Assembly (NCBI RefSeq): GCF_004310325.1
Contig: NZ_SIRT01000006.1
Location: forward strand, 124,001-188,000
DNA: 64,000 nt
DNA from: Hyunsoonleella flava
GTDB lineage: Bacteria > Bacteroidota > Bacteroidia > Flavobacteriales > Flavobacteriaceae
Direction: 5' to 3'
Translations under genes and position numbers: made by a program
Notes under the pieces: model-generated
The model's database searches: none
What the model was told of the DNA's origin: nothing
The model's input: the letters and a program-made list of their open reading frames with translations, nothing else
In this document: positions 4,844 to 52,394 of the stretch, piece by piece
How positions within the stretch are numbered: position 1 is the first letter of the stretch
Layout of the letters: every line of letters begins with the position of its first letter

Positions 4844-4888
4844 CAGGATAGAGCAGCAGCGCATTCATCCTTACCTTGCATAAATTTG
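4844..4888 (+). promoter_or_regulatory. Tandem CAGGATAG operator and -7 box upstream of GH2 (site A)
   Basis: First repeat CAGGATAG at 4844-4851, weaker second repeat CAGCAGCG at 4854-4861 (10-bp period). After exactly 19 bp comes TAAATTTG (4881-4888), a perfect Bacteroidetes TAnnTTTG -7 box. The site lies three bases after the GH88 stop and 86 bp before the GH2 start, so GH2 has its own promoter. One of seven such sites in the window. Confidence 0.7.
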
Positions 4889-4973
4889 TATTTTGCAGCA
4901 TGCTGTTTTAAATCAATTATCCTGATATATGTGATGCATAGCTATACTAGTATTATCAAATAAACCCGACTTA

Positions 4974-7394
4974 ATGAAATTTGAAACTCCTGTTACTAAA
5001 TTAGTTCTGTTTTTCATTTGTATTATCATGTTTTCATGTAATTCAAATACAGAAACAGATTTTGAAAGAACACAAAAAAACATTAACGAGAATTGGTTGT
5101 ACCTTGAGAATAGTGCGACTTCTTTAAATGATGCATTATCCCAAAGTAATTGGGAGCAGATTAATTTACCGCACAGTTGGAATGCATTGGATGCCACAGA
5201 TATTACACCAGGCTACAGAAGAAGCGCAAGCTGGTATAAGAAAGATTTAACCATTGACGCTACAGCTAAAAACAAGAAATATGTATTGTATTTTGAAGGT
5301 GTAAATATTGAAAGCGAAGTTTATGTTAATGGAAAAAAACTTGGCGGTCATACAGGAGGATATATAGGTTTTAGGGTAGATATTACAGATGCTGTTTCTG
5401 ATGGAGAGAATGAAATTTTGGTTCGCGTAGATAACAGCTACAATCCAGAGGTTATCCCTTCTCAAAAAAGCGACTTTTTTATTTTTGGAGGTATTACAAG
5501 AGACGTTTGGTTAGAAACTTTGCCAAAGCAGCATGTATCGCATGTAAAGATTACTACACCGCAAGTATCTAAAAATAATGCCGAATTACAGGCTGAAGTG
5601 ATTATTAGTGGTATAGAAGAAGCTTCTGAATTAAAAATTAAAGCTTCACTTTTAAATCCTAAAGGAGAAATAGTAAGGACTTCAAGTTTTGATATAAGAA
5701 ACGAAATCGCAAATGTTACATTCAAAGATATTAACAAGCCAGAACTCTGGCATACATCTGCACCAAACTTATATACCCTCAATATTGAGTTAGTTGATGG
5801 GGATATCGTCAAAGATAAATTATCTGAAAAAGTAGGTTTTAGATGGTTCGAGTTTAAAGACCATGGTGCATTTTATTTAAATGGTGAACGTCTTTTGCTT
5901 AGGGGAACGCACAGACATGAAGAGCATGCCCGAGTAGGGGCGGCAATGTCCAATGAGCAACATAGAGCTGATATGGAGCTGATAAAGGATATGGGTGCTA
6001 ATTTTGTTCGTTTGGCACATTACCCTCAAGATCCGGAAGTTTACAAGGCTTGCGATGAGTTGGGGCTGTTGGTATGGGACGAATTACCATGGTGTCGTGG
6101 AGGATTAGGTAATGCAATCTGGAAAGAAAACACGAAAACTATGTTAAAAGAAATCATCAACCAAAACTTTAATCACCCAAGTATCATTTTATGGTCATTG
6201 GGTAATGAAATCTATTGGTTGCCAGATTTTGAAAATGGGGACGACAGAGAGAAAATAAACGAGTTTTTAAAAGAATTAAACGATTATGCGCATGAACTTG
6301 ACCCTTCAAGGAAGACAGCAATAAGAAAATATTATGAAGGTGCAGATATTGTTGATGTATTTTCGCCATCAATATGGTCTGGCTGGTATTCTGGGAGTTA
6401 TAAAAGCTACCAAAAGGCTATAGATCAATACAAAGCAGAATATCCGCATTTTTTACATGCCGAATACGGTGGATCAAGCCATGTAGGACGACATACAGAA
6501 AACCCGATCACTGGTGAGGGTAAAATTCAGTCAGATGGATGGGAAGAAGCCATTGTACAAACCGATGTGGCAAATATTGCCCAAATAGGAGATTGGAGTG
6601 AAAATTATATTGTGGACTTATTTGATTGGCATTTACGTATTTCAGAAAACGATTCAACCTTTGTTGGAAATGTGCAATGGGCATTTAAAGACTTTGGCAC
6701 GCCATTACGTCCAGAAAATGCTATTCCTTACATGAATCAAAAAGGGCTGGTAGATAGAACGGGAAAACCAAAAGATGCGTTTTATGTGTTTAAGAGTTAT
6801 TGGAGCGATGAACCATTCACATATATAGAATCGCATACGTGGACAGAGCGCCAAGGGCCAAAAGGAAAACCAAGAGATATAAGTGTGTATAGTAACTGCC
6901 CCGAAGTAGAACTTATTTTAAACGGAAAAAGTTTAGGAGCAAAAAAGCGAAACACAAGAGATTTTCCTGCTGCTGGTTTAAATTGGACTGTTAGTTTTAA
7001 AGAAGGCGAAAATATTTTAACCTCTGTTGGTAGCACTGAAGATGGTAAAAAAGTGAAAGATGAGTTAAAAATCAATTACAGGTTTACCAAAAACGGTAAA
7101 GCTAGAAGCTTAAAACTAGAACATAAAAAGCTAGACAATGGCAATTATTTAATTACCGCTAAAGCAATAGATAATAAGGGCTTGCGATGTTTGGATTATG
7201 AAGAGCGCGTATATTTTCAATGCTTAAATGGGGGAGAGGCCATAATTAGTCAAGGTACCCCAACAGGGAGTGAAGTTATAGAGATGGCAAATGGAAAAGC
7301 ATCAATTGAGGTCAAGCGGTTTTCAGAAGATGAATTGCTACAGGTGATGGTGCTCAATCAAAGCTTTAAAGGTACTTATCTAAATATTGATTAA
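4974..7394 (+). CDS. GH2-family beta-glycosidase, lipoprotein
   Basis: 806 aa, predicted exo-acting beta-glycosidase (galactosidase, glucuronidase or similar; specificity not readable). Lipobox Cys22 (IMFSC). Domain order is the usual GH2 one: N-terminal sugar-binding jelly roll (about 35-185), immunoglobulin-like domain (about 190-290), TIM barrel (about 295-590), then C-terminal Ig-like domains, one being the DUF4982-like stretch around 630-710. Acid/base Glu412 lies in SLGNEIYW and nucleophile Glu497 in HAEYGG. 'LLLRGTHRHEEHARVG' is the conserved barrel start. Single-gene unit between site A and the regulator. No truncation seen. Confidence 0.92.
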   Translation: MKFETPVTKLVLFFICIIMFSCNSNTETDFERTQKNINENWLYLENSATSLNDALSQSNWEQINLPHSWNALDATDITPGYRRSASWYKKDLTIDATAKNKKYVLYFEGVNIESEVYVNGKKLGGHTGGYIGFRVDITDAVSDGENEILVRVDNSYNPEVIPSQKSDFFIFGGITRDVWLETLPKQHVSHVKITTPQVSKNNAELQAEVIISGIEEASELKIKASLLNPKGEIVRTSSFDIRNEIANVTFKDINKPELWHTSAPNLYTLNIELVDGDIVKDKLSEKVGFRWFEFKDHGAFYLNGERLLLRGTHRHEEHARVGAAMSNEQHRADMELIKDMGANFVRLAHYPQDPEVYKACDELGLLVWDELPWCRGGLGNAIWKENTKTMLKEIINQNFNHPSIILWSLGNEIYWLPDFENGDDREKINEFLKELNDYAHELDPSRKTAIRKYYEGADIVDVFSPSIWSGWYSGSYKSYQKAIDQYKAEYPHFLHAEYGGSSHVGRHTENPITGEGKIQSDGWEEAIVQTDVANIAQIGDWSENYIVDLFDWHLRISENDSTFVGNVQWAFKDFGTPLRPENAIPYMNQKGLVDRTGKPKDAFYVFKSYWSDEPFTYIESHTWTERQGPKGKPRDISVYSNCPEVELILNGKSLGAKKRNTRDFPAAGLNWTVSFKEGENILTSVGSTEDGKKVKDELKINYRFTKNGKARSLKLEHKKLDNGNYLITAKAIDNKGLRCLDYEERVYFQCLNGGEAIISQGTPTGSEVIEMANGKASIEVKRFSEDELLQVMVLNQSFKGTYLNID

Positions 7395-7484
7395 TTCTTC
7401 AGTATTTAAAAATTCGAAAAACACAAGCGTTTTACATTTGGCAACTTTCGCTACGAATACTTTATAGAGCACAGCCATATCGTA

Positions 7485-7530
7485 GCGGACAGTACAGGAT
7501 AGTTTCTTTAAGCAATTTTACTTAATTTAA
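7485..7530 (+). promoter_or_regulatory. Tandem CAGGATAG operator upstream of the GntR regulator (site B)
   Basis: Degenerate first repeat GCGGACAG (7485-7492) and perfect second repeat CAGGATAG (7495-7502), period 10 bp. The -7 box is the poorest of the set: TAATTTAA at 7523-7530 is 20 bp away and TACTTAAT at 7519 is 16 bp away. Placement in front of the only plus-strand regulator gene suggests that the regulator gene itself belongs to the regulon. Confidence 0.55.
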
Positions 7531-7536
7531 TTTTTG

Positions 7537-7626: not shown

Positions 7627-7632
7627 GTATTT

Positions 7633-8634
7633 ATGTTAAACGCTACGATAAATTTGAAGAATATAGACGAAAACGATGTTCCAAAATACAAAAGAGTATT
7701 TAATGCATTTAAGGAATCTATAGAATCCAATGCTTTTAAATCAGGTGATAGCATTCCTTCAATAAATGAGTTTAGCAGAAATTATAAGCTGTCCAGAGAT
7801 ACCGTTTTTAAAGCATACACCCTTTTAAAACAAGAAGGATTCATTAAATCTACTCCTCACAAAGGCTATTATATTGCAGACAATAAAATTAAAGTCCTTT
7901 TACTCATCAGTACCTTTAAGGCTTATAAAGAAGTTTTGTACCATTCCTTTATGCAAAATTTACCAAAAAACGTGATTGTTGATTTGCAATTCCACCATTT
8001 CAATGTAAAAAGCTTTAAGTCAATGCTTAATACGGAGAGTGGCGAATACTATAAGTATATTATAATGGGTTTTGATCATCCTAAGGTCAAGAAGGCCATT
8101 TCAAAAATTAATAATGACAAGCTTCTATTAATTGATTGGGATTTGGGTACAAAAAAGACGAAAAATTATCTTTTGCAAGACTTTGGGAGAGGATTCTATA
8201 ATTGCTTAGAAGAGGCTTCGCATTTATTTAAAAAATACAAAGGGATTCATTTTGTTTACCCTGAATACACCTTTCATCCTTGGGAAAGTGTAAAATATTT
8301 TAAAAAGTTTTGCGAGAAGAATAGTTTTGAGTTTAAGGTATTAAAAAACTCCAAAGAGTTTAAGGTTGAAAAAAATATAGCATATATTACTGTTAATGAC
8401 AGAACGCTTTATGAATTGCTCGATCAATGTATTGCCAACAATTTTGAGTTGGGTAAAGATGTAGGCTTGCTATCCTACAATGAAACACCAATAAAAAGAT
8501 TTACTTTTAAGGGAATTTCTGTAGTTTCAGTTGACTTTAAGGAGTTTGGAGCAATAGCTGCGGAATTTGTATCCAAAGACACTGCCGTTCGAAAGTTTTT
8601 AGAGACCAAACTTATTTTGAGAGACTCTTTGTAA
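7633..8634 (+). CDS. GntR-family transcriptional regulator with periplasmic-binding-protein-like sensor domain
   Basis: 333 aa, cytoplasmic (no signal or membrane segment). Residues about 15-84 form a GntR winged helix: 'VPKYKRVFNAFKESIESNAF', then 'SGDSIPSINEFSRNYKLSRDTV' and 'LLKQEGFIKSTPHKGYYIAD'. Residues about 87-330 resemble the LacI/periplasmic-binding-protein sensor fold (for example 'VGLLSYNETPIKRF' and 'ISVVSVDFKEFGAIAAEF'). This architecture is used in Bacteroidetes for intracellular sugar sensing, as in the FucR/AraR-type regulators. It is the only one-component regulator on the plus strand and sits behind operator site B, making it a candidate for control of the plus-strand units. 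GntR dimers normally bind inverted repeats, whereas the shared operator is a direct repeat, so that link is unproven. Confidence 0.88.
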   Translation: MLNATINLKNIDENDVPKYKRVFNAFKESIESNAFKSGDSIPSINEFSRNYKLSRDTVFKAYTLLKQEGFIKSTPHKGYYIADNKIKVLLLISTFKAYKEVLYHSFMQNLPKNVIVDLQFHHFNVKSFKSMLNTESGEYYKYIIMGFDHPKVKKAISKINNDKLLLIDWDLGTKKTKNYLLQDFGRGFYNCLEEASHLFKKYKGIHFVYPEYTFHPWESVKYFKKFCEKNSFEFKVLKNSKEFKVEKNIAYITVNDRTLYELLDQCIANNFELGKDVGLLSYNETPIKRFTFKGISVVSVDFKEFGAIAAEFVSKDTAVRKFLETKLILRDSL

Positions 8635-8709
8635 AAGTGTGAAAATAAAACTTAACCACACTGTTTTCTTGCTAACAAAAAAAAGTGTTTATCGTTTTCA
8701 ATATTTAAT

Positions 8710-8820: not shown

Positions 8821-8875
8821 TAACTAAATTGCATTAACAAAGTTTCAATGGAATTTATCTAACAATATCCTAAAT

Positions 8876-10045: not shown

Positions 10046-10097
10046 ATTATAGAAGTGTATTCTAATTCCTGTTTTTTTATTAAAAAAAAGAGCAATA

Positions 10098-10142
10098 CAG
10101 TATAGTGCAGGATAGTTAAATTGCTATTATGTTGTAAAATTG
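10098..10142 (+). promoter_or_regulatory. Tandem CAGGATAG operator and -7 box upstream of the double SusCD operon (site C)
   Basis: CAGTATAG (10098-10105) and CAGGATAG (10108-10115), 10-bp period, then 19 bp to TAAAATTG (10135-10142), one mismatch from TAnnTTTG. The five-gene operon 10215-21314 begins 73 bp further on. Confidence 0.7.
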
Positions 10143-10214: not shown

Positions 10215-13200
10215 ATGTTAAAACTTAAACTCAAAATGAAACAAAAATTTAGAAGACAATTTCCTGTCTTTGGGTTTGTGCTAATGCTTATCATGGTCTT
10301 TTCCAGTTTTACAAGTATTAGTGTTCAAGCTCAAGAAAGGATTTCGGGAACAGTCTCTGGGCCTGATGGATTTCCTATACCAGGGGTGAATGTTCTGCAG
10401 AAAGGGACTACCAATGGTGCAGTTACTGATTTTGATGGGAACTACAGTATTACTTTACGTGAAGGAGGTAAAATATTGGTTTTCTCTTATATTGGCTATA
10501 AAACAAAGGAAGTAAGTGTTGCAGGTCAAACTTCGGTTAATGTAGCATTAGAAGAAGATGTTGAAGGATTGGACGAAGTAGTCGTTATTGGTTATGGTGT
10601 TCAGAAAAAAGAGAGTGTTGTAGGTGCTATTACCCAGGTAAAGGGTGAGGATCTTCAAGAACTAACTATGGGTATCACTAATGTTGAGGAAGCGCTGCAA
10701 GGAAATCTACCTGGTGTTACCACAATACAAGGTAGTGGTGTTCCTGGACGTAACGATGTACAGATTTTTATTCGTGGTCAGGCTACTTGGAATGGTTCTG
10801 GGCAACCTTTAATACTTGTAGACGGTGCGCCTCGTGATATTGATAATATTGATTTCAATGATATTGAAAAAATTTCTGTGCTTAAGGATGCTTCTGCTAC
10901 GGCGGTTTTTGGTGTACAGGGTGCAAATGGAGTTGTATTAATTACCACAAAAAGAGGTCAAAAAGGAAAAGCACAATTATCATTACAAGCTAACACAACA
11001 GTTAAGGTTGTCTCTAAGTTACCGGAAAAGCTAGATGCTTACAGTGCTATATTAGAAGCAAATTCGTCTGTATTAAGAGAACTTGCTCAGGATGAAGCAT
11101 CTTGGGGTTTCTATCGGCCATTAGCTATAGCGGAAAGGTTTCGTAATCCAGCAAACGAGCAGGAAAGCTTTATTTATCCTAATGTAGATTGGAGAGAAAC
11201 ACTTTTAAAAGATTTTGCGCAAGATTATCGTGTAAATTTATCAGTTCGTGGAGGGGGTGATAACGCAAAGTATTTTGCAAGTTTAGCATACCAAAAAACA
11301 TCTGATATTTTTGACGGTAAGAGTTTCGACAATGGTAAAGGCTATGAAAGTGAATTTAGTTATGATAGGTTTAACTTTCGTAGTAATATAGATTTTAATA
11401 TTACAAAAAGCACTGAGCTTTCTGTAAATCTTGGAGGTTTTTACGGTATACAGCAAACCCCAGGTAATTTAAATTTGGTTACAAATGCTATTTATGAGCT
11501 GGCACCGAACGCTTACATACCTGTTTTCCCAGATGGGTTTTATGGTAGGGATAATAATGATGTATTTGCTAATACAAATCCTATTGTTACTTTAACAAAT
11601 ACGGGATACAGTACTACGAATACGTTTCAAATAAATACCGATTTTATCTTAAAACAAAACTTGGATTTTATTACTGATGGTCTAAGAGTTCAGGGACGTC
11701 TTTCTTTAGATAATAGATCACAAAGTAGACAACAATTACAAGATCCAGGTGCTGACGGTCAGGAAAATGTAAGATACCGAATATATAATGAATTTTTTGA
11801 AGAGCGAATTGAGTCTCCAGATGGCGTAAATGATTTTGATTTTGTACCATTTCCATGGACACTTGGGGCTGCTAATATTCAGGATGGTACAATACGCCGT
11901 AACTTCTTATATGACTTCTCCGTTAACTATAGTAAAACGTTCGCAGATAAGCATACGGTTACAGGACTGGCATTGGTAAGACGCCAAGAGCGAGGTACCG
12001 GTAATGGGTTTTTAACCTATCGAGAAGATTGGGTAGGAAGGGTAACTTATGACTATGATAAGAGGTATTTCTTAGACATTAGTGGTGCTTACAACGGATC
12101 GGAAAAATATGGTCCAGGATTCCGTTTTGATCTTTTTCCTGCTATGGCGGCAGGTTGGACGGTGTCCAACGAGGCATTTATGAGCGACATTGATTGGGTG
12201 AATTTACTCAAAATTAGAGGGTCTTATGGAGAAATTGGTGATGACCAAGGTGGCAGAAGGTTCGAATATCAAGCCACTTGGAATATTGGTGGAGGTGCAT
12301 TTATAAATCCAAACGCCTCTAATCAACGTGCACCATATGTGTTTTATAGTGAGGCTAATGTAGGTAACCCCAACCTACAATGGGAAACTGCAATAAAGTA
12401 TAATATAGGTGCAGAGATTGGATTGTTTAAAAATTCAATAACCGCTGAGGTTGATTTCTTTGGAGAAGATCGTAGTAATATACTGATTCCAAGTACTCAA
12501 AGAGCGGTACCAGAATGGTTTGGTGCAAGTCCTCCAGCATTTAATAGAGGTCAAGTGGAAGTACGAGGATACGAAATTGTACTAGGAGCTAATCATACTT
12601 TCGGAAACGGAATAAACATTTTTGGTAATTTTAACTTTACACAGGCGAAAGATGTGGTGATTGATAGAGAAGATCCAGAGTTACGTCCGTTTTACCAAAA
12701 AGCAGCTGGTTATACAATTGGCCAACCAAGATCTGCTATTCCTGGTGGGATTCTAGGTAGTTTAGATGATTTGTATAGTTCTACGCCAAGAGTTAATGGG
12801 CAAGGTAACATTAGAACTGGATACTATAATTTGGTTGATTATGATGGTGACGGTGTATACAATGGCGCTTTTGATAATGTACCTTTTGGTTTTCCTGTGC
12901 GTCCACAACGAAACTGGGCTGCTACAATTGGAGCTAAATATAAAGGCTTAAGGTTATCTGTACAGTTCTATGGTACACAAAACACAAATAGAAATTATAC
13001 CAGTAGAACATTTAGTAACCAAACGGATACATTTTTTGCACACGAATTAGGGTATTGGACTAAAGATAACCCAACTGGTACTCGAACCCAGCCTACTTTT
13101 AATTTTAATCAAGGAGCTAGTGATCCAAGACGTAGCTTTTGGGATGGTTCTTTAACCAGATTAAGGGCAATAGCTTTGAACTATAGTATACCGAAGAAAA

Positions 13201-13379: not shown

Positions 13380-13390
13380 AAAGAATTATT

Positions 13391-15292: not shown

Positions 15293-15341
15293 AACCTGAA
15301 TAAAGTTGTTTTAACTAATACTAAATACTAAAGAAAAAAAA

Positions 15342-18392: not shown

Positions 18393-18417
18393 TAAAGTAA
18401 AAAATTAGATATATAAA

Positions 18418-20142: not shown

Positions 20143-20177
20143 AAGCATAATTTTAAAAGAATTAAAAAATATTTAAC

Positions 20178-21619: not shown

Positions 21620-21664
21620 CAGGATAGAACAGGATAGATAAAGTTTTTCAATTTTATACTTTTA
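21620..21664 (+). promoter_or_regulatory. Perfect tandem CAGGATAG operator and -7 box upstream of the DUF1080/oxidoreductase operon (site D)
   Basis: Two identical copies of CAGGATAG at 21620-21627 and 21630-21637, the best site in the window. TACTTTTA (21657-21664) follows after exactly 19 bp. The same octamer at the same distance occurs at site E. Confidence 0.75.
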
Positions 21665-24526: not shown

Positions 24527-24529
24527 CAA

Positions 24530-25723: not shown

Positions 25724-25728
25724 GAATA

Positions 25729-27519: not shown

Positions 27520-27564
27520 CAGGACAGAGCAGGATACAATTTGAACTATTAAATTTTACTTTTA
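27520..27564 (+). promoter_or_regulatory. Tandem CAGGATAG operator and -7 box upstream of the sulfatase-GH78 gene (site E)
   Basis: CAGGACAG (27520-27527) and CAGGATAC (27530-27537), 10-bp period, 19 bp to TACTTTTA (27557-27564), identical in box and distance to site D. The ATG lies 59 bp after the box. Confidence 0.7.
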
Positions 27565-36103: not shown

Positions 36104-36122
36104 AATTTTTGAATTTTAAAGA

Positions 36123-37604: not shown

Positions 37605-37619
37605 AATGTTCTAATGGTT

Positions 37620-39077: not shown

Positions 39078-39113
39078 AATTTTTTAAAGCAACTGTTTGT
39101 GGTGGTTTTGGGT

Positions 39114-40868: not shown

Positions 40869-40876
40869 TTTTTTTA

Positions 40877-42343: not shown

Positions 42344-42359
42344 TGTTATATTTTTTTAC

Positions 42360-45299
42360 TTAAAATGTTACGCTTAAACCAAAAATGGTTGTTCTCGCTT
42401 GTGGATATGTACCAAAATCGATACCTCTTACTGTGTTACTGCCACCAAAGGCATTTACTTCAGGGTCAAAGCCTGAATAATTTGTAAATGTTAATAGGTT
42501 TTCGCCAGTAACATATAATCGCAATGCACTTATATTTATTTTTTCTAAAGCGCTTTTAGAGAATGAATAGCCAAGTGTAACAGCTTTAACTCTTAAATAA
42601 GATGCGTCTTCTATAAATCTAGTAGATACTCTAGAGTTATCAGAATTACCAAATACAGCTCTAGGTATGGTGGTAATGTCCCCTGGTTGTCTCCATCTAT
42701 TAAGTACAGAAGTAGATTGATTTTTTGGATCAATAAGACCTTCCGTTTCTATTCGCGTTGCATTCAACATATCGTTGCCATAAGACCCTTGTAAGTATAT
42801 CATCAGATTGAAGTTTTTATACCTAAAGTTATTAGTAGCAGAGTAGGTGAAATCTGGATTGGCATCGCCAATTATTACTCTGTCATCAGCAGTTGGAGAA
42901 AATGTAGAAACGCCATTTTTATCAATATAAAATGCACTACCCGTTTCTGGATCTACACCACCGTAAATGTATCCAAATAGTATACCTAAAGGTTCCCCTT
43001 CTCGTATTAATGCAGCTTCTCCACGGCCGCCAGCAATACCACCCTCAAAAACATCAGAATCTACAAGGCTTGTTATTTCGTTTCTATTGAATGAAATATT
43101 GAAGTTAGAATTCCAATTAAAGTTTTCGTTATTAATATTTTCACTATTAATTGCGAATTCAATTCCCTTATTTTCTAATTCACCAATGTTTTGAATAGCA
43201 CTTGTAAAACCTGTTGCGTTTGGAAGTGGTGCGTTATATAACAAATCTTTTGTTCTTTTGATGTAAGCATCTGCGGTTAGGTTGATTTTACTATTGAATA
43301 GAGAAACATCAATACCAATATTAGTTTGGTTAGATTCCTCCCATTTTAATTCTAAATTCTCAATGGAGGATGGAAATGTTCCTGGTTGAATTGTGCCGCC
43401 AATTGGATAATTTGCACCAGAACCTACACGACCAAAAAAGGCATAGTTTTGAATTTGGTCATTACCAACAATACCCCAGCCAGCACGAAGCTTCATGTCG
43501 CTTAATACTTCTGAATTTTTTAGAAAAGATTCTTTTGAAACTCTCCAACCAAGAGAAAATGACGGGAAGTATCCCCAACGTTTATCAGGGCCAAAAACAC
43601 TAGAGCCATCTGCTCTAAAGTTTGCAGTAACTAAGTATTTATCATCATAGCTGTAGTTTAAACGCCCTAAAAATGATGAGTTAGCCTTTTCAGCTTTATC
43701 TGCCGTTGCATTAAATATTTCTGAGCCACCGTTTGGAGTAGTCACTGTAGCACTTGCAAAATTCCGTGTTTCAATAGCACTATTCTCAAACTTATTTTTT
43801 TGGTTAACAGAACCAATTAAGGCTTCAATTTTATGTTTTTTTATCTCGTTGTTATACGATAAGGTGTTCTCAAAAATATAATACGAACTTTTGTTGGTGG
43901 TATTTATAGCTCGACCACCCAAAGCAGAACCAAATCCTGTTCTAAATGGATCTAGGAATGAATCAAACACGCCATTGCTATTATCAACACCAAAGTTTGT
44001 TTTGAATTTAAAGTTTTTTAATAGTTTTACTTCAAAGTATATATTTCCCAGAAATCTTTGACTATTAAACTCCCTGTCTAAACCATCAGTTGAGGCTAAT
44101 GGATTTTCCCAGTTTTGAAATGGATTACTTGTAAATGAACCATCTTCATTAAAAATTCCAATAACCGATGGTGTGGTAAGTGCACCAAGTAAAACACCTC
44201 CTTGGTTAACAGCGTTGTTATCGTTAACATCTACATCACGATATTGCGTGTAAGCAATTCTTGTACCTACTTTCAGCCATTCATTAACTTCTTGGTCAAA
44301 ATTTATCTTAAAATTATAGCGCTCAAGCTCTGAACTTTTTACAATACCTTCTTGATTTATGTAGCCTGCAGATACGTAATAATTGCTGCTATTGTTTCTC
44401 CCAGACATCGCAAGTTGGTAGTTGTGAGATAGTCCATTCTGAAAAATTTCTTGTTGCCAATCTGTATTATTATTAAACCGTTCCCAGTCTGTCGTTTGCC
44501 CAAGCTCTGTCATTAAATCTCTATACTGCTCGCCATTTAAAACAGGTAAAGTATTCCATGCTTGCGATATGCCTAGATATGTATCAAATGTAAATTTAGC
44601 TTTTTCGGTAGTACCACGTTTTGTGGTAATTAAAACTACACCATTAGCTCCTTGAGCTCCGTATATAGCTGCTGAAGACGCATCCTTTAGTACAGAAATA
44701 GCATCTATATCTGCAGGGTTTATAGAACGTGTATCTGTTGTAGGAACACCGTCAACAACATATAAAGGTTCGCTACCAGAAGTTATTGAGTTTGTACCTC
44801 GAATTCTTATATTGAGTCCAGCTGATGGTTTACCAGAATTAGCTAAAACTTCTACCCCAGTGGCCTGTCCTTGCAGAAGTGAGCCAATTTGAGCATTTGA
44901 TCGCTGTTCCAGTACTTCAGATTTTATTTGTGCAACCGAACCAGTGATATCACGCTTTTGTTGGGCGCCATAACCAACAACTACAATCTCTTCTAAAGCT
45001 TCTGCGCTTTCCTCTAAAATAACATTAATAGTTGTTCTGCTATTTATGTTTTCTTCAATAGTTGTCATTCCTACATAACTGAAGACTAAAGTTGACTTCG
45101 AATTTATTTCTGTTGTTAATTGGTAAAAGCCATCAAAATCAGTAGAAGTTCCGTAGGTAGTGTTTTTCACCAAAACAGTAACACCTGGAATGGGTTGACC
45201 ATTTGTATCAGTAACTTGCCCCTTAATTGTTTTTTCTTGTGACAAGCAAATTAATGGTACAAGAAAAATGAGAAAAATTATTTTCTTAGCTGTAATCAT
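42360..45299 (-). CDS. SusC-like TonB-dependent transporter (glucan cassette)
   Basis: 979 aa, complete. Signal peptide 1-20 (ICLSQ), CTD about 26-100 ('GQVTDTNGQPIPGVTVLVKN'), TonB-box region 'LEEIVVVGYGAQQKRDITG', plug 'ISVLKDASSAAIYGAQGANG', barrel ending 'GLSVTF'. First structural gene of the minus-strand cassette. The upstream intergenic region carries a -7-like box and a pair of AATCCA repeats. Confidence 0.96.
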   Translation of the reverse strand: MITAKKIIFLIFLVPLICLSQEKTIKGQVTDTNGQPIPGVTVLVKNTTYGTSTDFDGFYQLTTEINSKSTLVFSYVGMTTIEENINSRTTINVILEESAEALEEIVVVGYGAQQKRDITGSVAQIKSEVLEQRSNAQIGSLLQGQATGVEVLANSGKPSAGLNIRIRGTNSITSGSEPLYVVDGVPTTDTRSINPADIDAISVLKDASSAAIYGAQGANGVVLITTKRGTTEKAKFTFDTYLGISQAWNTLPVLNGEQYRDLMTELGQTTDWERFNNNTDWQQEIFQNGLSHNYQLAMSGRNNSSNYYVSAGYINQEGIVKSSELERYNFKINFDQEVNEWLKVGTRIAYTQYRDVDVNDNNAVNQGGVLLGALTTPSVIGIFNEDGSFTSNPFQNWENPLASTDGLDREFNSQRFLGNIYFEVKLLKNFKFKTNFGVDNSNGVFDSFLDPFRTGFGSALGGRAINTTNKSSYYIFENTLSYNNEIKKHKIEALIGSVNQKNKFENSAIETRNFASATVTTPNGGSEIFNATADKAEKANSSFLGRLNYSYDDKYLVTANFRADGSSVFGPDKRWGYFPSFSLGWRVSKESFLKNSEVLSDMKLRAGWGIVGNDQIQNYAFFGRVGSGANYPIGGTIQPGTFPSSIENLELKWEESNQTNIGIDVSLFNSKINLTADAYIKRTKDLLYNAPLPNATGFTSAIQNIGELENKGIEFAINSENINNENFNWNSNFNISFNRNEITSLVDSDVFEGGIAGGRGEAALIREGEPLGILFGYIYGGVDPETGSAFYIDKNGVSTFSPTADDRVIIGDANPDFTYSATNNFRYKNFNLMIYLQGSYGNDMLNATRIETEGLIDPKNQSTSVLNRWRQPGDITTIPRAVFGNSDNSRVSTRFIEDASYLRVKAVTLGYSFSKSALEKINISALRLYVTGENLLTFTNYSGFDPEVNAFGGSNTVRGIDFGTYPQARTTIFGLSVTF

Positions 45300-45362
45300 T
45301 ATTTATTTAGTTTGTGGTTTAAACGAATTACTACTTGGGTATAGCAATAATTCATCGTGGAA

Positions 45363-45417
45363 CAAAATTACAGTGTCAGAGTTGTTAAAAATGGATTAGG
45401 TATTAAAAAAGTGGATT
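45363..45417 (-). promoter_or_regulatory. Promoter of the glucan susC with AATCCA direct repeats (candidate SusR-type site)
   Basis: Read on the minus strand: TAATTTTG (45370-45363), a perfect TAnnTTTG -7 box, 63 bp before the ATG. Upstream are two direct repeats AATCCA followed by T-runs at 45417-45412 and 45397-45392, period 20 bp, with 21 bp between the nearer one and the -7 box. No TTG -33 box is visible, which fits activator dependence. Confidence 0.5.
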
Positions 45418-45572
45418 TTTTAAGTTGTTTAATTGTTTTAATGTATTGAAAATAAAATACTTAAATTTTATTTGCAACTTTTAAAAAGTAGCTGTTTTGT
45501 GAGTCTTAAGAGTGTAAAACTAAGTTTAAAGAGGCTGAATTCTTATTTTTTGTGCGCAATTTATATGTTTAG

Positions 45573-47216
45573 TTATGATATTTTCTTCACATCATCCTCA
45601 AAAGTATCTCTGTATTTTGCGCTATTTTTAACTTTTACCCTATAATTATAAATAGTGTTAACTGAATAGCGTAGAATTTTTGAAATCTTCGTGCTATTTG
45701 TTATTCCCAATCTGATTAAAGCAAATATTCTTAGTTCTGTATTTAGGCTTTGTTCTTCTTTTAATATTATTTGCTCATCATCTTTAAGAAGGTTATTAAC
45801 TTCATTAACAAAGTTAGGGTATATGTGTAAGAAAGATTTATCGAAATTTTCGTAGAATAGATTAAGTTCGTTGTCAATAAGTTGTTTTGATTTGGTGAGT
45901 TCTAATAATGCTTTTGTTTTATTTGAAACAATATACTTTCTCACCATTTTTCTGTAGGTGTCAAGTTTATTGATGTAATCTGAATAAAGGTTTAAAAAGG
46001 TGCCAATATATTGTTCCTTTATTCTATCGGTATCAGATAGTTCGTTGTAAAGTCTGTTTAAATCAGAATTAGTTAAACTTAACTGTTCATTTAAGTTGTG
46101 TAGTTGTGCATTTGCATCTTTGAGTTGCTTTCTAGCAGCAGACAATTTTTTTATCTGTCTGTATATATATATTATGGTTAACAATAGAAATAATACCAGT
46201 ATGCTGATGAATATTAAAAGCTTTTTTAGTTCTTTTTGTTGCTCTAAATTTCTTTCTTCATAAGCCTTCGATATTACAGATAGTTTATTGGATATATTTA
46301 CAAAGCGTAATCTAGAGTTATATAATTCTGCATCTTCTACAGAGAAGACTATATAGTTATGAGCTCTTTCAATATCTCCTTCCTTAAAAAAAATCATTGC
46401 TAACTCTGTAAGCGAAGCATTATCTTTGATTGATAGTTTTATGTCTGATATAGCAGAACGAATTAAAAATTCTTTTTGTTTTGGAATGTTGTTGTCAAGT
46501 TCAAAAAGTAATGCTCTTTCAAAAGCTACTAAGGAGTATAACGGCGACTCTGGTTCCAAATAATTTAAGCGTTTATTATTAATTTCAAGAGCTTTTTTTA
46601 TTTCGCGCTTGTCTCTAAGTTTCTTTTCTTTAAGTGCTAGTGATTCATCCGAATTTTTCTTTAATTGTTGAAGTAAAGTGTCTTGATAGACATTGTATAA
46701 CCTAGAATACTCCTCTTTGTTGCTCCTAACAGACGCATAAAAATTCAAGCCAGAATAAACTTCTTTAAGGCAATAAAAGTATAAGCTATGCAGGATTTCT
46801 GGAAGGTTTTGTCTTTCAATTTCATTTAAAACATCTATGGCTTCTTTATATCTACCAGATGATACAAGTAATTTGGCTAATTTAAGTTGAACTTTGTTTT
46901 TTAAAACAGAGTCATTTAGTTTATTTGCAATCTCAATATTTTTTTCGATTGATGTAAGTGCTTTGTCAAAACTATATTTTTCATATTCAACTATAATTTC
47001 GTTGTATATAAAATACTTGTTTTCATCTGTGGCTTTATCATTATTAAGTAGTTTTTGTAAGTTTTTAATTCTTATTTCTTTTGCTGCGTCGTAAACACTT
47101 CTTTGTTCCATATTATGCTCAAGGGCAATTAATAAAGAATCAAGTTGTGTTTGAGTAAAGCTTTTTGTAAAACAAAGCATACTTAGAAAAAAGAATAGAT
47201 GAGGTTTCAAAAGCAT
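45573..47216 (-). CDS. SusR-like membrane-anchored transcriptional regulator (TPR, DUF6377, C-terminal HTH)
   Basis: 547 aa. Signal peptide 1-21; periplasmic TPR-like helices about 40-320; one transmembrane helix about 333-352 ('LLIFISILVLFLLLTIIYIY'); coiled coil about 355-400; DUF6377-type cytoplasmic region; C-terminal helix-turn-helix about 490-530 ('ELRIFALIRLGITNSTKIS', 'ILRYSVNTIYNYRVKVK'). This is the layout of Bacteroides SusR, which senses alpha-glucan oligosaccharides in the periplasm and activates sus genes directly. Located just upstream of susC on the same strand with a 273-bp gap. Likely dedicated to the embedded glucan cassette; the ligand is inferred from the GH30 genes. Confidence 0.86.
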   Translation of the reverse strand: MLLKPHLFFFLSMLCFTKSFTQTQLDSLLIALEHNMEQRSVYDAAKEIRIKNLQKLLNNDKATDENKYFIYNEIIVEYEKYSFDKALTSIEKNIEIANKLNDSVLKNKVQLKLAKLLVSSGRYKEAIDVLNEIERQNLPEILHSLYFYCLKEVYSGLNFYASVRSNKEEYSRLYNVYQDTLLQQLKKNSDESLALKEKKLRDKREIKKALEINNKRLNYLEPESPLYSLVAFERALLFELDNNIPKQKEFLIRSAISDIKLSIKDNASLTELAMIFFKEGDIERAHNYIVFSVEDAELYNSRLRFVNISNKLSVISKAYEERNLEQQKELKKLLIFISILVLFLLLTIIYIYRQIKKLSAARKQLKDANAQLHNLNEQLSLTNSDLNRLYNELSDTDRIKEQYIGTFLNLYSDYINKLDTYRKMVRKYIVSNKTKALLELTKSKQLIDNELNLFYENFDKSFLHIYPNFVNEVNNLLKDDEQIILKEEQSLNTELRIFALIRLGITNSTKISKILRYSVNTIYNYRVKVKNSAKYRDTFEDDVKKIS

Positions 47217-47381: not shown

Positions 47382-47426
47382 CAGTATAGTACAGGATAGG
47401 TCTCATGCTTATATGTTTTAAGTTTA
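47382..47426 (+). promoter_or_regulatory. Tandem CAGGATAG operator and -7 box upstream of GH43-GH3-GH105 (site F)
   Basis: CAGTATAG (47382-47389) and CAGGATAG (47392-47399), then 19 bp to TAAGTTTA (47419-47426). The leader is short: the ATG follows 36 bp later. The site lies in the 246-bp divergent region shared with the SusR-like gene but points toward GH43. Confidence 0.72.
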
Positions 47427-47462
47427 GCCACTATACATTTATCATATTATATTAAGGTTAGA

Positions 47463-48821
47463 ATGATATATTTAATGAATTTGAAACCGATACATCTTGC
47501 TTATCTATTTCTTCTAAGTTTTAATTTCTTTTCAGCCCAAAACCCTATTGTGCCTAACCAAGGCTTAAACGATCCACACATTCATATTTTTAATGATACG
47601 GCATACGTTTACGCATCACACGATAAATCTAAAGAAAACAAAAAGTTTATCATGGAAGATTGGTGGGTTTGGTCATCACCAGATTTAGTCAATTGGAAAA
47701 AACGTAGCGTATTAAATCCAAAAGATACATATATTGGAAAAGACTTTACAAGATGTTGGGCAACAGATGCCGCTTATAAAAACGGGAAATATTATTGGTA
47801 TTTTTCTGAAGGTAACGAGCAAACCGGCGTTGTAGTAGGCGATACTCCAGTTGGTCCTTGGAAAGACGTTTTAGGAAAACCACTTTTAAATTCAGATTTA
47901 ACACCAACTCACGAATATGATATGGCCGTTTTTGAAGATAACGGAGAACATTATATCATCTTTGGTGTTTGGGACTATTACATAGCTAAACTAAATGATG
48001 ATATGATAAGTTTAGCCGAAACTCCTAAAAAAATTGAGATTACAGGTGTAAGAGGTCCTTACAATACCGATGGAAGTAACAAGGAAATGCCATCGGATGA
48101 TAAACCATTTCTTCATAAATACAATGGCAAATACTATTTGTCTTGGGGCTGTTTTTATGCCATGTCTGATAATTTGTATGGCCCTTATGATTATAAAGAT
48201 TCTGTAATAAAAGAAGAAAGTTTTGCTGAGGGTTACAATGCGCCCACATGGCCAAATGGGTTTTTACAAGGGCGCCATGGTAGTTTTTTTGAATGGCATA
48301 ACCAATGGTATTATGTATATTGTGATATCAGTCAAACAGGAAATCGCTATTTTAGAGACAGTTTTATAAGTTATGTGCATTACAAAGCAAATGGAGAAAT
48401 GGCAACTATAAGAGTTGATGGAGTAGGTGTTGGAAATTATAATGCTAACAATACTATTGAAGCCGAAGATTATTTTAAATCTGAGGGGACTGTTAAAATA
48501 GAAAATACCATAGGCGGTTTTTCAATACAACCACAACATGATGGTAGTTATACCGTATACCCGAATGTAAAAGGGTTGAATGATAAAAATAGTATAGAGC
48601 TACAAGTGATAGCTCGTGAAGCTGCACAAATAGAAGTTAGAGCCGATAGCCCTAATGGTAAATTATTATTTACTTGTAATGTGCCTAAAAATGATATTTA
48701 TACGCTTCAAAAGAGAGCATTCGATATTGAAAATATAGAAAACATACAATCCATTTGTTTTGTGTATAAAGGAATAAAAGATAAATCGTTCACACTAAAT
48801 AGATTTCAATTTAAAAATTAA
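47463..48821 (+). CDS. GH43-family glycoside hydrolase with C-terminal CBM6-like domain
   Basis: 452 aa. Signal peptide about 1-25 (FFSAQ). Five-bladed propeller (about 30-325): catalytic base Asp37 in GLNDPHIHIF, pKa modulator Asp153 in HEYDMAVFED. At the general-acid position, where GH43 normally has Glu in an EGP motif, the sequence reads SDDKPFLHKYNGKYYLSW, so Asp213 would replace Glu, or the acid lies elsewhere. A beta-sandwich CBM6-like module (about 340-452, 'NTIEAEDYFKSEG') ends the protein. GH43 enzymes are xylosidases, arabinofuranosidases or galactosidases; xylose removal fits the locus. An alternative start is Met5. Confidence 0.86.
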   Translation: MIYLMNLKPIHLAYLFLLSFNFFSAQNPIVPNQGLNDPHIHIFNDTAYVYASHDKSKENKKFIMEDWWVWSSPDLVNWKKRSVLNPKDTYIGKDFTRCWATDAAYKNGKYYWYFSEGNEQTGVVVGDTPVGPWKDVLGKPLLNSDLTPTHEYDMAVFEDNGEHYIIFGVWDYYIAKLNDDMISLAETPKKIEITGVRGPYNTDGSNKEMPSDDKPFLHKYNGKYYLSWGCFYAMSDNLYGPYDYKDSVIKEESFAEGYNAPTWPNGFLQGRHGSFFEWHNQWYYVYCDISQTGNRYFRDSFISYVHYKANGEMATIRVDGVGVGNYNANNTIEAEDYFKSEGTVKIENTIGGFSIQPQHDGSYTVYPNVKGLNDKNSIELQVIAREAAQIEVRADSPNGKLLFTCNVPKNDIYTLQKRAFDIENIENIQSICFVYKGIKDKSFTLNRFQFKN

Positions 48822-48842
48822 ACAACTACTAAAAACTCTAAA

Positions 48843-51107
48843 ATGAAGAAATTATTTTCGTTATGCTTATTAATCAGTATTGCTGTTACGTCTTGTGGGG
48901 AGACTGTTTCAAAAGATTATAAAGACGCCTCTTTATCCATTGATGAGCGCGTAGAAGCATTATTACCAAAATTATCCCTTGAAGAAAAAGTGGCTCAAAT
49001 GCGAATTTTTCATGCTAATATCGGAACAAAACCAGACGCTAATGGCAACTTAAAACTGTCAGATAAAGTTATTGAAAAATTAAAACTTGGTATTGCAGGG
49101 ATTAAAAACCCGGGCGAGCATATTGATGCTGTAGCTGCTGCAAAGCTAAATAACGAGCTTCAAAAATATATTATAGAAAATAACCGTTGGGGTATTCCAG
49201 CATTGTTTGTTACAGAATCATACAACGGTGTAGATGCAGAGGGTTGTACGCGATTCGGTCGCCCAATGACATCGGCAGCATCGTTTAACCCAGAATTAGT
49301 GCAACGCCAATGGGATGTTGTAGGAAGAGAAGCCCGTTTACGTGGGATGCACATGTGTCATTCACCAGAAGCTGATGTGGTGCGCGACCCGCGTTTTGGG
49401 CGTATGAGTGAGGCCTTTGGAGAGGATACATATCTAACAACTCAAATGGTAACAAGTGCTGTAAAAGGTGTACAAGGAAATTATGAAGGTTTAGGAAATG
49501 GTACCCATATTGGTGCTGTAGCAAAACACTTTGCAGGATACGGACAAGTATTAGGTGGTTCTAACTTTGCAGCTATTGAGATTTCTGAAAGAACATTAAT
49601 AGACGAAATTTACCCACCATTTGAAGCGGCTGTAAAAGAAGCTAGAACTTTAGGTATAATGGCATCACACGGTGATTTAAATGGAGTGGCGAGTCATGGT
49701 AATCCAGAATTACTAACTGGTGTATTACGCGACCAATGGGGTTTTGAAGGTTATGTGGTATCAGATTCCAATGATATTGCCCGCTTACATTATTTTATGA
49801 ATGTTGCCGAAACTCCAGAAGATGCAGCGCAAATGGGTTTAGAAGCAGGAATCGATATCGATTTATATGCTGAAGATTCTTATGCATATTTACCAGAAAT
49901 GGTAAAGAAAAACCCAGAACTTGAAAAATTAATTGATAGATCTGTACGCCGTGTTTTAAGAACAAAATTCATTTTAGGGCTTTTTGATAATCCTTATATC
50001 AACATTGAAGATGTAGAGAAAGGTAACAGAGCAGCGTCTTCTTTAGCATTAGCAAAAGAATCAGATTTAGAGTCTATTATTTTATTAAAAAATGAAGATA
50101 AAGCGTTGCCATTATCAAAAGACAAACCTTTAAAAGTAGCTTTGTTAGGTCCGCTGTTAAAGGAAAATACAAAAGCCATGTTTGAATCTGTTGCAGGTTC
50201 AAATGTAAAATTCATAGCGGAAAAAGGATTCAATTTAACAAACCAAAAAGGAGGTGCTCCAGAACTTTTAGACAGAGACCCAAAAGCTATTGCAAGTTTG
50301 GTGAATAAAGCAAGGTCTGCAGACGTTTCAATCTTATTTTTAGGAGGTGATGAGTATACTGCAAAAGAAGCTTATTTTAGTAATAGTACCTTAGGTGATA
50401 GAGCAACTATAGATCCTGTTGGCCCTCAAGACGAACTTGTAGAAAAAATTAAGGCGTTAGGTAAACCAGTAATTGTGGTTTTAAAGCATAGAAGAACCTT
50501 ATCCATTAATGTTATAGCAGAACAAGCTGATGCTATTTTAGATACTTGGGACTTAAGTGAATTTGGTGATGAATCTACAGCCAGAATCGTTTTTGGTGAA
50601 GTATCGCCATCAGGTAAATCACCTGTAACTATTCCAAGGTCTATTGGGCAAATACCATTTCATTACAGCATGAAAGAGATTAACTATAAGAAAGAATATT
50701 TATTCATTGGTCAAGGACCTTTATTTCCATTTGGTCATGGCTTAAGTTATGGCGATTTTGAATATTCAGACATTTCAATATCTAACGCAGAAATTACACC
50801 AGATACAGAGCTAGAGGTTAGTGTTAAAGTGACTAATAATGGTAGTATGAAAGCTAAAGAAGTGGTACAACTGTATATCAAAGACGAAATAGGCTCGGTA
50901 ACAAGACCAGACAAAGAACTAAAAGGTTTTGAGAAAATAGAATTAGGTGCTGGGGAAAGTAAAACAGTGTCTTTTAAAATAACACCAAAAATGTTGGAAT
51001 TTACAGGTATTTCGATGGAGAAAGTTTTGGAAGCTGGTGATTATACAGTAATGGTAGGAACATCTTCAAAAGAATATTTAGAAACTACATTCAAACTAAA
51101 AAAATAA
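48843..51107 (+). CDS. GH3-family beta-glycosidase lipoprotein
   Basis: 754 aa. Lipobox Cys18 (VTSCGE). (alpha/beta)8 domain about 30-390 with 'ALFVTESYNGVDAEGCTRF' and nucleophile Asp308 in GYVVSDSNDI. (alpha/beta)6 sandwich about 400-620, where 'SILFLGGDEYTAKEAYF' is the region that usually supplies the acid/base. C-terminal fibronectin-III-like domain about 650-754 ('ELEVSVKVTNNGSMKAKEVV'). GH3 enzymes release terminal beta-glucose or beta-xylose. It lies 21 bp after GH43 and 6 bp before GH105. Confidence 0.94.
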   Translation: MKKLFSLCLLISIAVTSCGETVSKDYKDASLSIDERVEALLPKLSLEEKVAQMRIFHANIGTKPDANGNLKLSDKVIEKLKLGIAGIKNPGEHIDAVAAAKLNNELQKYIIENNRWGIPALFVTESYNGVDAEGCTRFGRPMTSAASFNPELVQRQWDVVGREARLRGMHMCHSPEADVVRDPRFGRMSEAFGEDTYLTTQMVTSAVKGVQGNYEGLGNGTHIGAVAKHFAGYGQVLGGSNFAAIEISERTLIDEIYPPFEAAVKEARTLGIMASHGDLNGVASHGNPELLTGVLRDQWGFEGYVVSDSNDIARLHYFMNVAETPEDAAQMGLEAGIDIDLYAEDSYAYLPEMVKKNPELEKLIDRSVRRVLRTKFILGLFDNPYINIEDVEKGNRAASSLALAKESDLESIILLKNEDKALPLSKDKPLKVALLGPLLKENTKAMFESVAGSNVKFIAEKGFNLTNQKGGAPELLDRDPKAIASLVNKARSADVSILFLGGDEYTAKEAYFSNSTLGDRATIDPVGPQDELVEKIKALGKPVIVVLKHRRTLSINVIAEQADAILDTWDLSEFGDESTARIVFGEVSPSGKSPVTIPRSIGQIPFHYSMKEINYKKEYLFIGQGPLFPFGHGLSYGDFEYSDISISNAEITPDTELEVSVKVTNNGSMKAKEVVQLYIKDEIGSVTRPDKELKGFEKIELGAGESKTVSFKITPKMLEFTGISMEKVLEAGDYTVMVGTSSKEYLETTFKLKK

Positions 51108-51113
51108 GACATA

Positions 51114-52241
51114 ATGAATAAAACAATTTTATCACTTTTCGCAGTTGTGCTACTATTCAATTGTTCAACGGCTCAAAAAATAGCAGAGGTTGAAGCTATA
51201 GATAAAGCTCAGGTAAAAGCATCCATGATAAAAGCTTTAGAATGGCAAGAAGCACATCCTATTTTTGCACTTGCACCAACGGACTGGACAGCAGGAGCCT
51301 ATTATGTAGGTGTTGCCAGAGCACACAAAGCAACCAAAAATATGATGTATATGGCGGCGTTAAAAAATCAAGCCTATTGGAATAACTGGCAGACCTATAA
51401 GCGTTTACATCACGCAGATGATGTTGCCATCTCATATAGTTATATATATATTGATAGAAACGAGAAAAGAAGAAATTTTGTTGATTTAGAGCCTACAAAG
51501 AAATTCTTAGATGCACATTTATATGAAGATGACAATTGGAAATCGGGTAAAAATGCAGGTAAAGAAGGAAAAGACATTTTATGGTGGTGGTGTGATGCCT
51601 TATTTATGGCGCCACCAGTATTAAATTTGTATGCAAAACACACAGAACAACCTAAGTATTTAGAAGAGATGCATAAATTTTATATGCAAACGTATAATAA
51701 ATTGTATGATGAGGAAGAGCAGTTGTTTGCAAGAGATATGCGTTTTGTATGGCAAGGCAACGATAAAGATACCAAAGAACCTAATGGAAAAAAAGTATTT
51801 TGGTCTAGAGGAAACGGATGGGTTATTGCTGGTTTAGCTTTGATTTTAGATGATATGCCAACCGATTATGAACACCGTCCATTCTACGAGAAACTATACA
51901 AAGAAATGGCAGAAAAAATGCTAGCCATTCAACCAGAAGATGGTTTATGGCGTACAAGTTTGTTGTGTCCTGAATCTTATAACCACGGAGAGGTAAGCGG
52001 CAGTGGGTTCCATACCTTTGCTTTAGCCTGGGGAATTAATAATGGTTTAGTGGATAAAAAACACACACCAGCAGTTAAAAAAGCATGGAATGCTATTGTA
52101 AAATGCCAACATGAAGATGGTCGCGTAGGTTGGGTGCAAAATATTGGAGCTTTTCCGGAGCCAGCATCGGCAGATTCTTGGCAAAATTTTGGTACTGGAG
52201 CCTTTTTAATGGCAGGAAGTGAGATATTGAAGTTAGATTAA
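51114..52241 (+). CDS. GH105 unsaturated uronyl hydrolase lipoprotein
   Basis: 375 aa. Lipobox Cys17 (LFNCST). GH105 six-hairpin fold: '[20 protein letters not shown]', catalytic Asp161 in [12 protein letters not shown] with second Asp near 102-103 (HHADDVAI), '[18 protein letters not shown]' and '[19 protein letters not shown]'. It hydrolyses the unsaturated uronic acid from lyase-generated oligosaccharides; GH105 members do this in rhamnogalacturonan and ulvan systems. Overlap in function with the GH88 at 3659 suggests two different neighbouring sugars. A strong terminator follows. Confidence 0.94.
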
Positions 52242-52283
52242 TTTAGTTTTTCCTTTACTAAGGAATCTTTACTATATCAAAAT

Positions 52284-52328
52284 AAAAGCTCATTTTTTCA
52301 ATCAATGTTGAAAAAATGAGCTTTTTTG
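52284..52328 (+). terminator. Intrinsic terminator after GH105
   Basis: Perfect 18-bp inverted repeat, 52284-52301 (AAAAGCTCATTTTTTCAA) with its complement at 52308-52325, 6-base loop, continuing into a T-run. Symmetric enough to work on both strands. Confidence 0.92.
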
Positions 52329-52349
52329 TTTTTATTATTCAAACACACA

Positions 52350-52394
52350 CAGGATGATACAGGACACTATTTCATACTAAAAAAATTATTTTTA
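52350..52394 (+). promoter_or_regulatory. Tandem CAGGATAG operator and -7 box upstream of the distal operon (site G)
   Basis: CAGGATGA (52350-52357) and CAGGACAC (52360-52367), period 10 bp, then 19 bp to TATTTTTA (52387-52394). The leader is about 130 nt before the ATG at 52524. The most degenerate repeat sequence, but with the same geometry. Confidence 0.6.

Follow-up and report, generated by a model that had tools for sequence, protein, structure and literature searches.

What do seven copies of a short tandem repeat do, each ahead of a transcription unit in one 64,000-nucleotide stretch of the Hyunsoonleella flava genome, and which protein reads them? The stretch (hereafter the window) is positions 124,001 to 188,000 of contig NZ_SIRT01000006.1, or C56:124001-188000 of the 3.8-Mb genome (G000). 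The housekeeping promoter consensus of Bacteroidota combines a -33 TTG element with a -7 TAnnTTTG box. An earlier interpretation of the window from its letters alone (the sequence-only reading) had taken the repeats for activator sites whose second copy replaces the -33 box. Here, we found that the tandem sites with their fixed distance to the -7 box are a genuine, widely conserved operator-promoter module, and we consider it likely, on comparative evidence, that they are operators of Bacteroidota GntR/LacI chimeric regulators that would activate by replacing the -33 element. The seven sites, with their scores for the 45-bp matrix described below, are as follows (GH, glycoside hydrolase family):

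4844 to 4888, + strand: tandem site with a weak second repeat (CAGCAGCG) and 19 bp to the -7 box TAAATTTG; score 16.7; 130 bp before the GH2 gene 4974-7394.
7485 to 7529, + strand: tandem site with a weak first repeat (GCGGACAG) and 19 bp to the octamer TTAATTTA; score 18.2; upstream of the GntR-LacI regulator's own gene.
10098 to 10142, + strand: tandem site with 19 bp to the octamer TAAAATTG; score 35.8; before the SusC/SusD genes 10215-21314.
21620 to 21664, + strand: perfect tandem site CAGGATAG-AA-CAGGATAG with 19 bp to TACTTTTA; score 37.2; before 21790-27147.
27520 to 27564, + strand: tandem site with 19 bp to TACTTTTA; score 37.6; before the sulfatase/alpha-L-rhamnosidase fusion gene 27624-31157.
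47382 to 47426, + strand: tandem site with 19 bp to TAAGTTTA; score 33.3; before the GH43/GH3/GH88 genes 47463-52241.
52350 to 52394, + strand: tandem site with 19 bp to TATTTTTA; score 26.0; before 52524-64000 (an 879-aa protein, a sulfatase, GH2, GH78-like and GH106 rhamnosidases).

All seven 18-bp tandem sites were found where the sequence-only reading had placed them, in intergenic DNA and each ahead of a + strand open reading frame (ORF). The 19-bp distance proved exact: TAnnTTTR is matched in full at 4844, 21620, 27520, 47382 and 52350 and with one mismatch at 10098, and the site at 7485, which had not been counted, has its octamer at the same distance with one mismatch, giving seven out of seven if one mismatch is allowed. 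The claim that all sites point the same way holds inside the window; elsewhere in the genome the strand of a site follows that of its downstream gene and may be either. At ≤3 mismatches to CAGGATAG-nn-CAGGATAG the window yields six matches, compared with an average of 0.25 when the whole window was shuffled 100 times. Ten intergenic regions are 60 bp or longer (2,642 bp in all). At ≤4 mismatches, a threshold picked so that all seven count, these regions contained seven sites, and each had its box, with no more than one mismatch, exactly 19 bp away, whereas 300 dinucleotide shuffles of the same regions, the control that the sequence-only reading had named, gave a mean of 0.04 sites (maximum 2), none of them with a box. 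Both shuffle tests rely on the consensus of that reading. A 45-bp matrix avoids this, as its training set consisted of 42 exact sites, all of them in other genomes; the seven sites were its sole window matches with a score of at least 8. By this matrix five sites are strong and two, 4844 and 7485, in which one repeat is degenerate, are weak, and these two barely exceed the highest score (15.7) in 20 random 64-kb sequences.

The fixed spacing could also be observed outside the window. Among 98 distinct sites with ≤1 mismatch (this genome included), TAnnTTTR stood exactly 19 bp away in 54, and any other offset was used at most four times. It should be noted that only these ≤1-mismatch rows, in which the reversed-pattern control yielded no site, were used; at ≤2 mismatches the control gave 17 sites, five of which had a box at offset 20. 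In a later set of 80 loci, six of them already present in the earlier set, sites were found by the 18-bp part alone, and 51 of 125 had the full TAnnTTTR at 19 bp and 85 a relaxed box there, compared with eight at the next offset; reversed 18-mers gave four sites. Secondary box counts at offset 29 are consistent with three-repeat arrays, and arrays of at least three repeats at the same 10-bp period occur in some relatives (loci L048 and L051). The other half of the housekeeping promoter is missing: TTG was found within the -33 region in only 2 of the 85 sites with a relaxed box, which is partly a consequence of the motif itself. Thus, the spacing in sequences outside the window supports the suggestion that the second repeat may take the place of the -33 box.

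An exact site was detected in 34 of 199 sampled genomes of the family, compared with two genomes for the reversed control. All 34 encode a homologue of the GntR-type regulator whose gene follows the second window site (E≤1e-25, with at most 10 candidates scored per genome), against a background of 90 of 199 (hypergeometric P=3e-14). Comparative evidence of this kind points to the following proteins as the probable readers, for which the sequence-only reading had offered no candidate:

7633 to 8634, + strand: candidate reader of 333 aa, with an N-terminal GntR winged helix and a C-terminal LacI-like domain (Pfam and predicted structure).
C62:110382-111428 and C62:111498-112544: two paralogues adjoining the rhamnose operon, 33-35% identity, PF00392 above the cut-off in both.

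In the window protein the winged helix was confirmed by PF00392 (38.4 bits, cut-off 27). Its predicted structure (mean predicted local distance difference test score 88.8, predicted template modelling score 0.74) shows a winged helix followed by a LacI-like fold, and the best Foldseek match of the model in PDB is the lac repressor (E=8.7e-13, TMq 0.60), as expected for an effector domain of the GalR/LacI type. Support from sequence for this domain is weaker: Peripla_BP_3 reaches 25 bits in the window protein, below the cut-off of 26.5, and 29.8 bits in a fourth paralogue of the same genome. Regulators of three families (PF19904, PF12833 and PF00392) were searched for in the genome, and among these GntR/LacI was the only architecture common to the two site clusters, on C56 and C62. 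On C62, tandem sites lie between the two paralogues and the divergent rhamnose operon. The DUF6377/tetratricopeptide repeat (TPR) regulator encoded in the window at 45573-47216 was tried as a reader and rejected; it is the one match above the family cut-off in the genome, and a weak match below the cut-off lies at C62:158205, beyond the surveyed part of that contig (1-134000).

A tree of 97 regulators was split with strong support into clade A (the window regulator, 7 genes), its sister clade B (20), clade C (15) and clade R (rhamnose, 50); these counts leave out five genes, two of them duplicates (L099 and L101, of L149 and L150) and three outside the four clades (L109, L126 and L161). Matrix matches of at least 18 within -800 to +1400 of the regulator gene were found for 7/7 genes of clade A, 31/50 of R, 2/20 of B and 0/15 of C, figures to be read with the variation of locus lengths between clades and, for R, as not independent because the matrix was partly trained on R loci. 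The best match lay in the divergent promoter for 25 of the 50 clade-R genes, and 43 had a match somewhere in the locus sequence examined. In 37 genomes whose clade-R locus was examined, 30 had the exact site and the other seven had inexact sites scoring 28 to 37. The typical clade-R promoter reads CAGTAYAG-TA-CAGGAYAG-N19-TAnnTTTG. In clade A, the 8-mer GTACAGGA, the second half-site of 7485, is present upstream of the regulator gene in all seven orthologues; the 7485 site is kept in this clade as one good half-site, which suggests autoregulation of the regulator gene. A division of the sites into an ulvan type (GG in the first repeat) and a rhamnose type (GT) was considered and dropped, as both forms occur in genomes without a match at clade-A level (for example, G002).

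An alignment of clade-R and clade-A proteins was used to scan named genomes for a further set, and 80 loci were obtained, 74 of them new. Many of these come from close relatives and do not count as separate events. In 55 of the 74 a match of at least 18 lay within 700 bp upstream of the regulator, always on the divergent strand, and the best score in the shuffled upstream regions (one shuffle each) was 5.4. The site was present in 51 of the 59 new loci with a tblastn match to rha proteins. The set covers Flavobacterium, Polaribacter, Arenibacter, Zobellia and Maribacter, together with records of Saprospiraceae, Lewinella and Marivirga. Among 29 loci of relatives, 14 have the site on the + strand, and in 10 of these (one site each) it is followed by an ORF matching a protein of the surveyed stretches of this genome. 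On these sequence comparisons, the layout recurs in many marine and freshwater Bacteroidota.

The strongest argument that a GntR/LacI protein reads the repeats comes from the other branches of the tree, which show one architecture and one period with branch-specific half-sites. In a blind test for tandem 8-mers (at least 7/8 identical), repeats with a 10-bp period were detected upstream of 14/20 clade-B and 12/15 clade-C genes (expected, 0.6 each), and other periods from 8 to 31 reached at most 3/20 and 5/15, respectively. The clade-B half-site, CAGAACAG, is present in 20/20 regions, and the clade-C half-site is CTAGTAGG-like. The two clade-B loci that were examined (L093 and L087) adjoin a xylulokinase-like gene (285 and 291 bits with the XylB model, below its cut-off). 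The fourth paralogue of this genome, of clade C (L158, C1:406137-415108), lies beside galactose genes and has CTAGTAGG-like tandem repeats. Because the distance from repeat to box is variable in clade C, no sign of regulation is proposed for this clade. What the computation shows is the sites and their spacing, the fact that they occur together with the regulator and close to its gene, and the different half-sites of the clades within one protein family.

If these proteins read the sites, what would be controlled? The pattern CAGKAYAG-nn-CAGGAYA gave 52 genome-wide matches at ≤2 mismatches, against 22 for the reversed control, clustered on C56 and C62. With the matrix, which recovers the window's seven sites and finds further ones in relatives, 29 sites scoring at least 15 were identified in the surveyed stretches of this genome. 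None lies deeper than 60 bp within an ORF of at least 150 aa, and 28 lie within 400 bp ahead of an ORF; the exception is 193452, where the called ORF begins 39 bp before the site. Seven other 2-mismatch matches in the genome, from the 7 out of 14 loci in which the match reads on the + strand, had no -7 box with fewer than three mismatches at 19 bp. The 29 sites precede five sets of genes. The first is the polysaccharide utilization locus (PUL) of the window, with SusC/SusD pairs, GH2, GH43, GH3, GH88, GH78-like and GH106 rhamnosidases, sulfatases and a BNR_4 protein. The second and third are on C62, a large rhamnosidase/sulfatase PUL and the rhamnose operon, the latter with RhaEW (TIGR02632, for which a 621-aa part scores above the cut-off), a protein whose best matches are L-rhamnose isomerase models with scores below their cut-offs, an FGGY kinase, a flavin mononucleotide-dependent dehydrogenase and an aldehyde dehydrogenase. 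The fourth is a gene for an ulvan lyase of polysaccharide lyase family 28 (PL28; C2:62259-63269), distant from both PULs. Finally, a site on C34, with its box at 18 bp and not 19, precedes glucuronate pathway genes (short-chain dehydrogenase/reductase, GFO/IDH-like protein, UxuA and glucuronate isomerase). A protein 81% identical to the C2 lyase likewise follows an exact site in another genome (G071).

With the ulvan PUL, the rhamnose operon, the PL28 lyase and the uronate genes all behind sites, the sites would join the needs of an ulvan degrader, and RhaEW, the isomerase-like protein, PL28, UxuA and glucuronate isomerase would belong to a coherent regulon covering what ulvan degradation requires. 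The sequence-only reading is the source of the ulvan label of the window PUL. In keeping with this label, a Beta-tre_PLH30 domain of ulvan-lyase type is encoded by the gene at C56:190177, the next one under such a site past the window, and by C62 genes. The module is not confined to ulvan loci and accompanies rhamnose metabolism across Bacteroidota, which the sequence-only reading had not noticed.

We infer binding, activation, the effector and the division of the sites among the three paralogues from these patterns, and the proposed mechanism is as follows. Two CAGGAYAG-type half-sites, in head-to-tail order at a distance of one helical turn, would be read by two regulator DNA-binding domains. 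The second half-site would stand in for the -33 element, exactly 19 bp before TAnnTTTR, and because it occupies that place at a fixed distance the bound protein would recruit RNA polymerase. The inducer would probably be L-rhamnose or a product of L-rhamnose, and ulvan depolymerisation, rhamnoside and uronate processing and rhamnose catabolism would be switched on together. A class-II-type activator is the most likely form of regulation, given the fixed distance, half-sites one turn apart, the replaced -33 element and targets expected to need induction.

A number of observations weigh against this proposal. The exact site is lacking in 56 of the 90 genomes with a GntR homologue, although many of these should hold only other regulator clades. 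No match of at least 18 was found near 19/50 clade-R genes, or in the whole locus examined for 7/50. The same is true of 19 of the 74 new loci, among them Chryseobacterium and Cyclobacterium; eight of the 19 have rha matches and four score 8-17. The blind test does not single out the 10-bp period in clades R (8/50, expected 2.0, with periods 12, 21 and 27 each at 7) and A (2/7), because in these clades the two half-sites of a pair are often unlike each other. With its two-fold symmetry, a LacI-type dimer would be ill-suited to a head-to-tail site unless linkers are flexible or each repeat takes one dimer. Close orthologues of a regulator of another type, considered below, are enriched in genomes with the motif (13/34, P=4.5e-9). 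In addition, known regulators of GntR/LacI architecture are repressors, and clade B shows the geometry of a repressor.

The last two points favour an alternative in which the same GntR/LacI regulators cover the -33 region and block polymerase until sugar releases them. AraR, the named relative with this architecture, is a repressor, and in clade B, sister of the window regulator, the tandem operator lies just downstream of the -7 box. It starts 5 bp after the box in 11 of 19 loci and 8-18 bp after it in the other eight, in a box search that spanned 40 bp upstream to 5 bp downstream only, and a two-way search placed the end of a full-match box 1-6 bp ahead of the tandem in 10/14 loci. However, in clades A and R the -7 box follows the operator at a single exact distance, a precision for which repression has no need, and the -33 position itself is taken up by the operator; TTG occurs there in 2/85 sites compared with 7/19 loci in clade B. 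Repression at the A and R sites is thus rather unlikely, though it keeps some weight.

Less probable still is a reading of the sites by a hybrid two-component regulator of the AraC type (HTCS), whose gene (C56:118609-122670) lies just ahead of the window. Its gene adjoins the PUL, and HTCS are the usual type of PUL regulator in Bacteroidota. Of the 199 genomes, 16 have a close orthologue (E=0), and the exact motif is present in 13 of these; in some genomes the gene stands next to the rhamnose-clade GntR gene. On the other hand, a close orthologue is missing in 21 of the 34 motif genomes, with at most three candidates per genome scored. Three genomes have an orthologue without the exact motif; one of them (G010) also lacks a GntR homologue, and the other two (G143 and G176) have strong inexact sites beside their GntR gene. 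The sole HTH_18 protein on C62 is a 296-aa AraC protein (C62:2194-3084) and not an HTCS, so the HTH_18 domains near the two site clusters belong to different proteins. Moreover, the repeat period differs: HTCS and SusR also control PULs through direct repeats, but according to PMC3878776 the repeats predicted for HTCS average 21 bp apart and those for SusR 67/77 bp. The period here is 10 bp, and in clade R a period of 21 is no commoner than those around it. The HTCS was therefore rejected as the main reader, because of the missing orthologues and the mismatch in repeat period. Finally, chance, composition or a generic promoter element, to which the two degenerate window sites might point, is refuted computationally and has practically no probability left, given none in 300 intergenic shuffles, exact sites in 34 genomes against two for the reversed control, and a distribution in which regulators of clades A and R have sites beside them, those of B hardly any and those of C none.

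With activation by GntR/LacI chimeras as the preferred account for clades A and R, we lean slightly towards a wider proposal. The rhamnose, ulvan, xylose and galactose branches of the Bacteroidota family, all cytoplasmic, would read head-to-tail repeats one turn apart, each with its own half-site, and position would set the outcome, namely activation where the -33 element is replaced at 19 bp (rhamnose and ulvan) and repression where the repeats come just after the -7 box (xylose). The rhamnose branch would then be the master activator of a multi-locus ulvan regulon.

How does this compare with known systems? For the PULs of Bacteroidota, the regulators invoked are mostly HTCS, SusR and extracytoplasmic function sigma systems, and a GntR alginate repressor reportedly exists in Zobellia. 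AraR represses L-arabinose genes from palindromic operators, and the C-terminal domain of NanR is of the FadR type. PhoB/OmpR-type regulators bind pho boxes, head-to-tail repeats one turn apart that replace the -35 element in a class-II-like activation; they differ from the present case in an unrelated protein, an 11-bp period and another promoter consensus. The sequence-only reading knew of no operator of this form for such a locus, and our literature search, largely without subscription papers, found no prior account of it or of a GntR rhamnose regulator in Flavobacteriia among the papers listed.

The AraR subfamily (Bacillus subtilis AraR) has the same GntR winged helix and GalR/LacI architecture and serves sugar catabolism, with chimeras described in PMC4494728 for arabinose, xylose and galactose in Firmicutes. 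In contrast, the putative operator here is a 10-bp head-to-tail repeat at -33, clades B and C likewise have 10-bp direct repeats and not palindromes, and the genes near the regulators are rhamnose, ulvan and PUL genes of Bacteroidota. Proteins of the MocR subfamily (GabR, TauR and PdxR) share the GntR winged helix and, according to PMC5320631, are often activators in divergons, commonly have direct-repeat operators and are proposed to form head-to-tail dimers. They carry an aminotransferase-like domain and their repeats are two or three turns apart, whereas the present proteins have a LacI-like fold and repeats one turn apart, and NCBIfam MocR-type matches span only about the first 87 residues. 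Escherichia coli NanR, of the GntR family, likewise binds short tandem repeats, (GGTATA)3, each of which takes one dimer; it differs in being a repressor that binds downstream of the polymerase site (PMC8012715). Operators of rha genes were predicted for the DeoR-family RhaR, of a protein family unrelated to the GntR/LacI regulators, as imperfect direct repeats with 10-11 bp periodicity (PMC3870299), and the words GntR and Flavobacteri- are absent from the main text of that paper. Within Bacteroidota, PMC3878776 describes FucR (BT1272) and ManR (BT2103) of Bacteroides as GntR-family regulators of monosaccharide operons, for fucose and mannose with motifs sought as palindromes, and places the rhamnose genes of B. 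thetaiotaomicron under an AraC-family RhaR.

The analysis thus provides a sequence-defined operator with a named candidate protein, by which polymer breakdown, oligosaccharide processing and monosaccharide catabolism would fall into one regulon. With a 45-bp matrix the operator can be located in raw sequence, and it offers a regulon-based route to ulvan and rhamnose genes outside PULs, such as the lone PL28 lyase and the uronate operon. It is also a direct test case for a LacI-type dimer with GntR heads on a head-to-tail site replacing the Bacteroidota -33 element; NanR solves a similar problem of dimers on tandem repeats by placing one dimer on each repeat (PMC8012715).

Some further features of the window may be mentioned. 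By the matrix, no CAGGATAG site precedes the minus-strand operon at 35273-47216 (GH30, SusCD, SusE and the TPR-DUF6377 regulator gene), which looks like a separate, nested PUL. The 879-aa protein heading the last site-controlled operon (52524-55163) had no Pfam match. The gene at 27624-31157 encodes one protein of 1177 aa in which a sulfatase and a GH78-like alpha-L-rhamnosidase domain are fused.

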